The position numbers and the translations under genes were made by a program. The notes beneath the pieces were generated by a model, which was given only the letters and a program-made list of their open reading frames with translations, did not search any database and had not been told where the DNA came from. From a virus, in IMG/VR virus record IMGVR_UViG_3300042516_002461, positions 1 to 26,291 of that record: 26,291 nucleotides of DNA. The stretch is one strand, 5' to 3'. Below are positions 5,043 through 24,492 of this stretch, one piece after another (position 1 is the stretch's first letter; every line of letters begins with the position of its first letter).

Positions 5043-5522
5043 ATGGGACGCAGAGGACCGAGACCAACACCAACATCCGTTCTGACGCTGCGCGGCAGTT
5101 CACTGCTGCCGCAACGCGTTGACGAGCCGAAGGGAACCGACGGGCCGGCGCTGCTGCTTCCGTTCGTTGTCGCTGACGAGCGGGCTCGCTGGTACTTCGA
5201 TCGCTTGATCGAGGACCTGCGCCGGCTCGGCGTGTACGCGGCCGAGGACTACGCCGCGCACAACCGCTGGGCCGCGCTCATGGCTGAGATGGAGCGTGCG
5301 GATGCGGAGGTGCGGCAGACCGGGCTGGTCGTTGAAACGGCCCAGGGCAAGTGGCAGAATCCGATGAAGAAGGTCAGAGACGATGCCTGGGCTGAGGCGT
5401 CGAAGTTGGGCAGGGAGTTTGGGCTGACTCCTGCGAGCAGGGTGGGTCTCGTTTCGTCGAGAAAGCAGCAACAGGGGGATGCCTCGGGCATCGACGCGCT
5501 CCTCAAACCGAAGTTCGCCTAA
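5043..5522 (+). CDS. terminase small subunit, P27-type
   Basis: A 159-residue protein beginning GRRGPRPTPTSVLTLRGS, the usual N-terminus of P27-family small terminases, with a C-terminal GLTPASR segment also typical of the group. It binds the packaging site and recruits the large subunit. ATG 5043 follows GGGAGG (5032-5037) with good spacing. A GTG six codons upstream (5025) is possible but less well supported. The gene overlaps the large-subunit start by 44 nt. Confidence 0.85.
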   Translation: MGRRGPRPTPTSVLTLRGSSLLPQRVDEPKGTDGPALLLPFVVADERARWYFDRLIEDLRRLGVYAAEDYAAHNRWAALMAEMERADAEVRQTGLVVETAQGKWQNPMKKVRDDAWAEASKLGREFGLTPASRVGLVSSRKQQQGDASGIDALLKPKFA

Positions 5523-21835: not shown

Positions 21836-23179
21836 ATGGTGATCCGGGTCACCGTAGAGTTTCGTGTGGATTCAGGGCGTGCAACTCGGGGTATTTCGCT
21901 CACGGGCCTGCTTCATCAGGTCGAGGCGTGGGAGGTGTACGCCCGCGAGGTCGAGGGTCACAGTCCCGCACACGCGTCACAAGCGGCCCGCTGGGTGCGC
22001 TCGTGGCTGCGTCATGCACGCGAACACGCGACCCCCGATACGTGTGTGGCGTGGTTGCGTGACATAACACGCAAGGCTGCACTGAGCCCACAGACCATCC
22101 GCAACCGATCCAGCGCGTGCCGCCGCTTCTGTGGCTGGCTGGTTGTCCAAGGCGTGCTGGACGCCAACCCGTGGGCCAGCGTGCCCATGCCGCGAGGCCG
22201 GGCCCGCCAGGGTGCCGACGCCTTCACAGACGAGCAGGTCGCCAGCCTGATCGCCCAAGCGGAGCGGATGGCCACGGAGGGCCGCAAGCCCAGCGACCGT
22301 GCGTCAGCGGCCAACCGGGCCAACCTCTACAGGTTCCTCAGCCTGACCGGCCTGCGACGGGGCGAGGCTCGGGCCCAGCGTTGGGATGACATTGACCTCG
22401 AGGCCCGCACCATGGTGGTCACGCTGGACAAGGCCCGCCGGGCTGATCCCGTGCCGCTGTCCGTTGCAGCTGCTGGCATGCTCCGGCAACTGCTGGCACA
22501 GCGTGGCAAAAGCCCGCTGGTCTTCCCCACGATCGTGACCGACAAGGCACTCGAAGCGGACTGCCGTGCCTGCGGGATCACCGGCCGCGGCAAGTGGCAC
22601 CGCTTCCGGGTCGGCTTCGTGACCGAATCCTTCGAGGCCGGCGTGCCTCCGGAGCTGATTCAGCGGCTGGTTCGGCATCGCTCTATCGACCAGACTCACC
22701 GATACTTGCGTCACCGGGAATCCCGTTTGCGGGACGCGGTGGAAGCACGAGTTAGAAAAAAGTCTCCAGATTCATTGCGCAGCAGCGAAACTCCCGATAG
22801 GTTGCCCGTGGATTCACACATGGGCCACGGCGCGACCATCTCCGAGAGCATGAAGACGACCAGCCAGGTCGCCGCGCCATACGGCTCTGAATCCACACTC
22901 AGCCTGGCTGGTCTTCTCAATGCTCTCGGCCGCTCGGGTTCGCCTGCTACCTCGGCAAACGAAAAGGCCCGCGTCAATCGACGCGAGCCTTTCGTGAGTC
23001 GGGGTGACAGGATTTGCACCGACACCCCCACCGACGTGGGGCCCGAGCGGCTTATCCAACACGCCATGCTGCTGATGCAGCTGGCGATGCTGCAGATGCA
23101 GCAGGGAGCCGCCAGTGAGCAAGTTGCGATTCGGTCAGGTGGTCGAGGACATCGGCCTAGCAATTCAGGATCTGCGTAA
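21836..23179 (+). CDS. int: tyrosine recombinase (integrase), with unusual tail
   Basis: A phage integrase. Residues 20-110 are a SAM-like core-binding domain. The catalytic domain carries R175 (TGLRRGEA), a lysine in the LDKARR beta hairpin (K199), HRFR (H255, R258), RHRS (H281) and the nucleophile Y290 in THRYLRH. This is complete by about residue 305. At codons 307-309 lies A_AAA_AAG (22756-22762). A -1 shift there gives a stop at 22798-22800 and a 321-residue protein of ordinary XerC/D length. The zero frame instead runs on 140 residues through DNA that looks like an attP region. The short form is likely the functional integrase; the long form may be minor or read-through. The start has no clear ribosome-binding site. 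Confidence 0.88.
   Translation: MVIRVTVEFRVDSGRATRGISLTGLLHQVEAWEVYAREVEGHSPAHASQAARWVRSWLRHAREHATPDTCVAWLRDITRKAALSPQTIRNRSSACRRFCGWLVVQGVLDANPWASVPMPRGRARQGADAFTDEQVASLIAQAERMATEGRKPSDRASAANRANLYRFLSLTGLRRGEARAQRWDDIDLEARTMVVTLDKARRADPVPLSVAAAGMLRQLLAQRGKSPLVFPTIVTDKALEADCRACGITGRGKWHRFRVGFVTESFEAGVPPELIQRLVRHRSIDQTHRYLRHRESRLRDAVEARVRKKSPDSLRSSETPDRLPVDSHMGHGATISESMKTTSQVAAPYGSESTLSLAGLLNALGRSGSPATSANEKARVNRREPFVSRGDRICTDTPTDVGPERLIQHAMLLMQLAMLQMQQGAASEQVAIRSGGRGHRPSNSGSA
22756..22762 (+). other. A_AAA_AAG slippery heptamer in the integrase gene
   Basis: Six A then G, in phase as AGA AAA AAG. It fits the strongest class of -1 slippery sequences, as used in IS3-family elements and E. coli dnaX. 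Slippage adds twelve residues and ends at TAG 22798-22800. A homopolymer length error or natural indel in this run would mimic the effect. Confidence 0.7.
22842..22929. repeat. long inverted repeat behind the integrase domain
   Basis: Arm 22842-22868 faces arm 22903-22929. CCGAGAGCAT and ACCAGCCAGG are perfectly complementary on both sides (20 bp) around a 7-nt mismatched internal segment, with a 34-nt spacer. The spacer includes GAATCCAC (22889-22896), the inverse of GTGGATTC at 22808-22815. Dense inverted repeats between int and the att core fit attP arm sites. Confidence 0.65.
22963..22992 (-). terminator. intrinsic terminator beside the att core
   Basis: AAAGGC, a C/A mismatch, CGCGTC, loop AATC, GACGCG, then GCCTTT. 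On the minus strand the stem ends in a TTTT run (GGCCTTTTCGTTT), giving a good minus-strand terminator. It lies directly after a minus-strand tRNA 3'-end-like sequence, as terminators follow tRNA genes. Confidence 0.6.
22999..23041 (-). other. attP core candidate: tRNA 3'-end-like sequence
   Basis: On the minus strand 23016-22999 reads CAAATCCTGTCACCCCGA, which looks like the T-loop, T-stem and acceptor end of a tRNA such as tRNA-Pro. The 5' half of a tRNA is missing and the T-stem is poorly paired, so it is not a gene. Integrases of this class often use tRNA 3' ends as attachment sites, with the phage supplying the copy. Neighbouring GGGGTG (23001-23006), CACCCC (23023-23028) and the hairpin CCCCAC/GTGGGG (23026-23041) can form alternative stems. 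Confidence 0.5.
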
Positions 23180-23519
23180 CGAGGGGAAGGCCCTCGACGC
23201 CTGCAAGGTTGAACTGACGCTGGAGCACCACGCTGGTGACATGGTGCGTGCTCTGATGATCGCGTTCCCCCAGGGACGCCTTGAGCCGCGCTTCGTGTTG
23301 ATGGCCGCGGACGCAGTGATCAGCCGCACCACGGAGATCGTGCTTGAGCACGCGGCCAAGTTGAAGTCTGCCCCGCTGGTCAAGACGGGCCAGGGCGACT
23401 ACGTGAAGGAGACCACCGAGGCCGACGTGGTGCGTGCGGAGACCCGTGCGGCGGCTCGGCGGTGTGCTTGGATGACCATGTGCCGCCGGGCGATGGCCCG
23501 GGTCTGGGGGGTCGCATGA
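23115..23519 (+). CDS. unknown protein of the recombination operon
   Basis: A 134-residue, mostly helical protein that I do not recognise. GTG 23115 follows GGGAG (23104-23108). It begins SKLRFGQVVEDIGLAIQDL and ends in an Arg-rich helix (RAAARRCAWMTMCRRAMARV). The gene is first in a run overlapped by ATGA junctions with the sigma-like mini-gene and the exonuclease, so a role in DNA metabolism or its control is likely. It overlaps the end of the long integrase frame by 65 nt, another reason to doubt that the long frame is the main product. Confidence 0.6.
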   Translation: MSKLRFGQVVEDIGLAIQDLRNEGKALDACKVELTLEHHAGDMVRALMIAFPQGRLEPRFVLMAADAVISRTTEIVLEHAAKLKSAPLVKTGQGDYVKETTEADVVRAETRAAARRCAWMTMCRRAMARVWGVA

Positions 23520-23659
23520 GCGTCGAGGAGATCGCCCAGCGAATGAACCTCAGCACGCGCCGCGTGCAGATGATCCTGCAGGAGGCGGTGCTCAAGTTGC
23601 GGGATGCCCTGGCAAACGACCGCGTGGTGCGGGACGAGTACGAGGGGGCGGGCCGATGA
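23516..23659 (+). CDS. mini-protein resembling sigma-70 region 4
   Basis: A 47-residue protein. SVEEIAQRMNLSTRRVQMIL then QEAVLKLRDAL closely resembles sigma factor region 4.2, the helix-turn-helix that reads the -35 element, including the terminal ALxKLR helix. No other sigma region is present. It could be a small transcription activator, an anti-repressor or a DNA-binding subunit for the neighbouring recombination genes. ATG 23516 overlaps the previous stop as ATGA and its own stop overlaps the exonuclease start. Confidence 0.65.
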   Translation: MSVEEIAQRMNLSTRRVQMILQEAVLKLRDALANDRVVRDEYEGAGR

Positions 23660-24492
23660 CCTACGAAAACACGTCGGTGCCTGACCTGCCCGCGGAGCAG
23701 TATCACGCTGTCGAGGCGTTGAGCAGTACGGTGGCCCGGGATCTGCTCTCGGCCAGCCCGAGGCACGCCCTGCACCGCAAGCAGCACCGTGAAGAGACGC
23801 CAGCCATGCGGCTGGGGACTGCCCTGCATTCGGCCGTGCTGGAGCCCGAGCGTCGCATGATCGCTGTGGCACCGTACGGTGACCGCCGCACGAAGGAAGG
23901 CAAGGCCCGGTACGAGGAGTTCCTGCTAAGCAGCGAGGGCAAGATAACGCTGACTGCTGAGCAAGGTGAGTTGCTTAGTGGAATGCTGTGCGGCATCCGC
24001 CGGTGCAAGTCGGCACTAGCGCTGCTCGAAGCCGCGCCGACCAGGGAACTGTCTCTGTTTGCCCGTGATCCGGTCACCAACGTGCTGTGCAAGGCCCGTC
24101 TGGACGCGATCAGCGTGCCGGAGAAGTTCATCGTGGACGTGAAGAGCACGAGCGGGCTGGCGACGCGGGGCGAGTTCGAGCGCACCATAAGCACGCGCGG
24201 CTACGGGTTCCAGGCGGCGTTCTACATGCACGTGGCGGCGCTGCTGGGCTTCGAGGTGGACGCGTTCGCATTCGTCGTGGTCGAGTCGGAGTTTCCGCAC
24301 GAGTGTGCAGTGTTCATGCTGCAGCCCGAGGTGGTGGATCTGTACGTGCCGCAGGTCACGAAGGCGATGCGGACTTACGCCCAGTGCATTGGAAGGGCCG
24401 AATGGCCGGGTTACGAGGACAAGGTTCACGAGATCGGGGTCCCTGTCTGGCTGCGTCGGCAGCTGGAGGAAGGCATGGAGGTGGCAGCATGA
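23656..24492 (+). CDS. RecE-like exonuclease (PD-(D/E)XK)
   Basis: A 278-residue protein. GTALHSAVLEP (H58), E131, KARLDAI (D150), IVDVKST (D161, K163) and QAAFYM (Q186, Y190) match the RecE C-terminal/PDDEXK_1 exonuclease class. It would resect double-stranded ends so that the annealing protein encoded next can load. It overlaps its neighbours by 4 nt on both sides, typical of a coupled cassette. Confidence in the fold is high; polarity is inferred from family. Confidence 0.85.
   Translation: MTYENTSVPDLPAEQYHAVEALSSTVARDLLSASPRHALHRKQHREETPAMRLGTALHSAVLEPERRMIAVAPYGDRRTKEGKARYEEFLLSSEGKITLTAEQGELLSGMLCGIRRCKSALALLEAAPTRELSLFARDPVTNVLCKARLDAISVPEKFIVDVKSTSGLATRGEFERTISTRGYGFQAAFYMHVAALLGFEVDAFAFVVVESEFPHECAVFMLQPEVVDLYVPQVTKAMRTYAQCIGRAEWPGYEDKVHEIGVPVWLRRQLEEGMEVAA

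Follow-up and report, generated by a model that had tools for sequence, protein, structure and literature searches.

The locus studied here raises the question of why a phage integrase gene stays open far beyond its catalytic domain and into DNA that resembles an attachment site. The window, by which we mean the whole stretch of DNA that was analysed, comprises 26,291 nucleotides from a virus (IMG/VR record IMGVR_UViG_3300042516_002461). The initial annotation had proposed that a -1 slippery site at the end of the recombinase domain switches between a short and a long integrase, and that the long tail, running through attP-like DNA, would change its sequence in a lysogen. The gene and its neighbour are located as follows:

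21836–23179, plus strand: tyrosine integrase gene (int), free-phage form of 447 aa, crossing attP; assigned from PF00589, phrog_1 and a tail open in 8 of 8 genomes
22226–22720, plus strand: catalytic (Phage_integrase) domain, residues 131–295, from the Pfam match
23115–23519, plus strand: downstream gene of 134 aa without family match, overlapping the final 65 nt of int

The int reading frame extends from the ATG at 21836 to the TAA at 23177–23179. Its product matched Pfam PF00589 (3.8e-18) and the phrog_1 integrase family (1.3e-38), and R174, H255, R258, H281 and Y290 were invariant in an alignment with its relatives. With both domain and catalytic residues present, the protein is a tyrosine recombinase of the phage integrase type. 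The structure model of Int was poor (mean pLDDT 52.5) and too weak for a fold search. A small ORF at 23462–23659, just 3' of attP, matched sigma-70 region 4 (1.5e-6) and is followed by an exonuclease VIII-like gene (23656–24492).

Six related integrases were obtained from IMG/VR searches and a seventh, the more distant L027, from a search with the att core, so that the comparison comprised eight sequences including the window. Their full-length identity to the window Int ranged from 89 down to 55%. When these integrases were compared, the zero frame proved free of stops in all eight, starting in the catalytic domain and continuing to beyond the att core. Measured from a fixed point of the catalytic domain, att lay 296, 308, 311 or 317 nt away, with identical phase throughout. 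Both other frames of the tail hold stops in each of the eight genomes; roughly half of the readings in the other frames met a stray stop, versus none in the zero frame (Fisher p=0.02, a rough value as the sequences are not independent). A neutral tail of such composition stays open with a probability of 0.07–0.18 per sequence, and since the sequences are moreover related, the openness of the tail taken alone is modest evidence, which the in-phase indels and the absence of stray stops strengthen. A search of annotated phages for related tails returned none. In L008 an early frameshift near 5110 places a stop at codon 80 of int while the tail is intact, which reflects either an assembly error or a decayed gene. 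The right end of the window runs on into its left end in relatives (26291 to about position 32); these joins mark the contigs as free genomes, circularly permuted and about 27 kb in size, in keeping with an intact attP. The contig starts with GGCGCCCCCCCCCCCGTGGGGGGGC, a strong G/C palindrome (positions 1–30), which may be the point where the assembly broke.

The proposed frameshift concerns two features upstream of the att core:

22756–22762, plus strand: A_AAA_AAG heptamer, judged a chance or A-tract feature from the relatives and from shuffles
22798–22800, plus strand: TAG of the -1 frame, within CCGATAGG, a DNA motif that is conserved and reads GAT AGG (Asp-Arg) in the zero frame

The heptamer lies in the int frame as had been described, the zero frame beyond it is open to 447 aa, and a shift to the -1 frame would end at the TAG after 321 codons. 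The Phage_integrase match stops at residue 295, and the last helix of the domain is predicted, with low confidence, to end near residue 307. A programmed -1 frameshift at this site would yield a 321-aa integrase beside the 447-aa one. The perfect heptamer recurs in L004 and L027 (3 of 8 sequences, the window included) and takes the form A_AAA_AAT in L009, and the -1 TAG sits inside a conserved motif. However, this motif is part of attP, whose DNA is conserved in any case, and L005 to L008 lack the heptamer although their anatomy is identical to that of the other phages. These four carry five A's. The initial annotation had named, as findings that would speak against its reading, reads or relatives with five or seven A's and homologues that conserve the 447-residue tail as protein; this is borne out in part, as the homologues keep the 447-residue frame open with the same att phase in all eight. 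AAAAAAG occurs once in the whole window, where 0.36 occurrences are expected, and at least one arose in 32 of 100 dinucleotide shuffles; its presence is not beyond chance. A conserved stimulator was not seen directly 3' of the heptamer, the inverted repeat described below beginning 80 nt on. Given the distribution of the heptamer among the relatives, the frameshift switch found no support. We consider it highly improbable, and the apparent signal is most likely a chance run of A's. This switch, a programmed -1 frameshift of the IS type, was rejected for its missing conservation and for the chance expectation of the heptamer.

The second suggestion, that the tail runs through attP-like DNA, proved correct, and the decisive features are:

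22996–23016, minus strand: attP common core of 21 nt (GAGTCGGGGTGACAGGATTTG), identical to the 3' end of actinobacterial tRNA-Pro, antisense on the plus strand
23015–23017, plus strand: TGC (Cys394), the predicted switch codon, which is TGA in the host tRNA; from the tRNA-Pro comparison

This tRNA-derived core lies inside the int reading frame (21836–23179) and in the same phase in all eight genomes. A BLAST search with the core returned matches to tRNA-Pro genes of mycobacteriophages. tRNA-Pro genes were fetched from Nocardia, Pseudarthrobacter and Arthrobacter records and confirmed with ARAGORN. In the tRNA-Pro of Nocardia farcinica the 21-nt core is identical, and over 25 nt the sole mismatch to the phage is the base after the core (N in GAGTCGGGGTGACAGGATTTGNACC). 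This base, at 23017, is C in the phage (TTTGCACC) and A in the host (TTTGAACC). The host A is the complement of T55, which is universal in tRNAs, and for this reason the host T-loop reads TGA. Read in the int frame, the phage has ATT TGC ACC here (Ile-Cys-Thr), the host ATT TGA. Codon 394 is TGC in all eight phages. In the IMG/VR scan, a core followed by C, G or T was found only in the seven relatives, always with C, while 38 stretches carried the core with A, many of them complete tRNA-Pro genes. The tRNA-Pro gene is presumably attB. The anatomy, an int gene that extends across attP, is well supported and very probably correct.

Two of these 38 stretches serve as controls, as they carry recombinases that end at the same place. 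The tyrosine integrase of L054 (PF00589, 1.4e-36) terminates with ...HSVGRGDRI at the T-loop TGA of a tRNA-Pro-like att, and the serine recombinase of L050 with ...LKQSRGDRI at the T-loop TGA; a complete tRNA was not detected at the att site of either. Because both end there, an integrase reading frame that stops at the T-loop TGA is workable. The window group is one base off this TGA in the free phage, and integration should restore it. The L050 gene (3641–5353, minus strand) is a large ORF for a serine recombinase, and its end falls in tRNA-Pro-like sequence; tRNA genes have been reported as targets of tyrosine integrases only (PMC4383910, Islander).

Several DNA elements accompany the core:

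21866–21874, plus strand: GTGGATTCA, candidate arm-type Int site at the int start, from repeat count and layout
22808–22816, plus strand: GTGGATTCA, candidate arm-type site, from repeat count and layout
22888–22896, minus strand: GTGGATTCA in inverted orientation, a further candidate arm-type site, 80 nt from the copy at 22808 in every case
22842–22929, no strand assigned: 27-nt inverted repeat with arms 22842–22868 and 22903–22929, from compensatory changes
22965–22990, minus strand: hairpin adjoining the tRNA 3' end, kept in 8 of 8 genomes with paired changes

The window holds three exact copies of GTGGATTCA, where 0.15 are expected; all lie inside int, and their layout is the same in seven of the eight genomes. 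The first copy is situated about 30 nt past the int start, a position from which Int may bind the start of its own gene. The inverted repeat is kept in distant relatives with compensatory changes and may represent either an attP structure or an mRNA hairpin. The hairpin adjoining the core is likely the phage copy of a tRNA terminator and would act on the minus strand.

Substitutions among six close sequences were counted by codon position in order to distinguish a tail maintained as protein from one maintained as DNA. The end of the catalytic domain showed 5/4/23 substitutions at first, second and third positions. From GATAGG to att the counts were 33/26/27, with dN/dS near 1. A strongly conserved protein domain ahead of att was rejected, since changes are even across the codon positions; this part of the tail shows no constraint at the codon level and is thus conserved as DNA, not as protein. 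Between att and the next gene, the counts of 13/8/20 display a third-position excess (p=0.03, 29 codons), a weak coding signal carried by one predicted element:

23042–23116, plus strand: predicted helix after att, residues 403–427, which would be lost on integration; from a low-confidence model and the third-position excess (p=0.03)

Where int overlaps the next gene (13/4/4), the changes sit on the third positions of the downstream gene, which dictates the last residues of Int. The C-termini vary among the relatives (...GSA, RRPRA, RRPRS, GSAD and DPAGR), and none of them gives the viral Int an evident ssrA-like tag.

Taken together, these features suggest the following course of events. In the free phage genome, translation of int would run on across the tRNA-Pro-derived core and give a protein of 447 aa, because the phage has TGC at the position of the host's TGA. 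On integration at the tRNA-Pro gene, int would be joined to the tRNA of the host in antisense, its codon 394 would become TGA, and a 393-aa Int ending ...VSRGDRI would result. When int was joined to the host tRNA in silico, the product was 393 aa long and ended ...REPFVSRGDRI before the stop. On this basis integration should shorten Int from 447 to 393 aa, a loss of 54 residues. The phage would provide the tRNA 3' end together with the terminator-like hairpin, so that the tRNA would remain functional. The expectation that the tail is altered in a lysogen is hereby supported in a specific form, a predicted change of TGC to a TGA stop donated by the host tRNA-Pro T-loop. Neither a scan of GTDB contigs with an int profile for lysogens nor a search of GTDB and IMG/VR contigs for the lysogen-junction pattern gave a hit or a host genome with attB of this phage, and since no integrated copy was found, the int-side junction is predicted, not observed.

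By analogy with the phage Mx8 and the BPs repressor, both discussed below, the most likely purpose of this arrangement would be an integration-dependent change in Int. The long viral Int would serve integration, and the short prophage Int might be of other stability or activity. We regard as probable the complete reading, i.e. an int gene with attP inside, truncated on integration by a TGC-to-TGA change, with the change in Int as its purpose. A regulatory role of the truncation appears plausible while falling somewhat short of probable. Rather unlikely, in our estimation, is a more detailed version, in which T55 supplies the stop, the 54-residue tail with its amphipathic helix is needed for integration or limits it, and the prophage enzyme differs in directionality while expression is unchanged. 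If the switch works, a universal tRNA base would act as the stop codon by which the phage reprograms its own integrase, and this would be a simple means of separating integration from excision.

The same anatomy could also result from passive read-through. Integration would then truncate Int all the same, the 54 extra residues would be idle, the TGC would have arisen by drift on that side of the crossover which the phage contributes, and chance together with common descent would account for the open tail. The evenness of changes before att is consistent with this, as no selection at the amino-acid level is seen there, and so are the variable C-termini of Int and the chance of random opening given above. 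On the other hand, the frame is open in all eight sequences with in-phase indels, set against the stray stops of the other frames, TGC never varies even though nothing would bar another base from its place, and the helix segment shows its weak codon signal. We therefore consider passive read-through a possible but not a probable explanation. A separate tail protein starting from Met329 (22820) and running across att, which integration would truncate in place of Int, is very unlikely. Met329 is invariant in seven aligned sequences and GATTCAnnnATG upstream of it is conserved, but a clear ribosome site was not recognizable and the codon signal is absent from the ATG to att. Furthermore, no zero-frame stop lies between the integrase and the ATG at 22820, and Int would for this reason include the tail anyway.

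Returning to the preferred reading, an integrase truncated by its own integration, parallels are found in several known systems. In tRNA-dependent lysogeny, a model that we rejected, cores measure ~10 bp (PMC10865867) versus the 21 nt of the present core, and a phage tRNA was not found in the window. The archaeal 'suicidal' integrases of the SSV type share an attP inside int and are split and inactivated by integration (PMC8371274), whereas in the window the catalytic domain ends about 100 codons before att and stays whole. The L054-type integrases read the 3' end of the tRNA in the same frame, with ...RGDRI at the T-loop; their TGA stop is already present in the phage, so that integration leaves them unchanged, whereas the window has TGC. 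In the Myxococcus phage Mx8, attP likewise lies within the coding sequence of a tyrosine integrase (IntP/IntX). Its int acquires a new 3' end on integration, which is reported to modify Int specificity (PMC6070905), and Mx8 has been named as a case of an integrase extending across attP (PMC4383910, Islander). Mx8 swaps in a new C-terminal sequence, whereas truncation by a single TGC-to-TGA difference is predicted here; the host groups of the two phages differ, and the likeness drawn here is one of gene layout. In the mycobacteriophage BPs and its relatives, attP at a tRNA-Arg gene lies inside the repressor gene. There a Cys codon receives a new third base on integration and turns into TGA, which leaves a shorter, active repressor (PMC9262239, Fig. 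3C; PMC4557955). In both phages, attP matches a tRNA of the host and falls within a coding gene, and a Cys codon is converted to TGA, in the window by prediction. The gene switched in BPs is the repressor and here the integrase, and the tail lost in BPs bears an ssrA-like degradation tag, unlike that of the window. If our reading is true, the trick of BPs, a Cys codon turned into TGA at a tRNA att site, arose again on a different gene. The window joins two known designs, the gene of Mx8, int, and the manner of switch of BPs.
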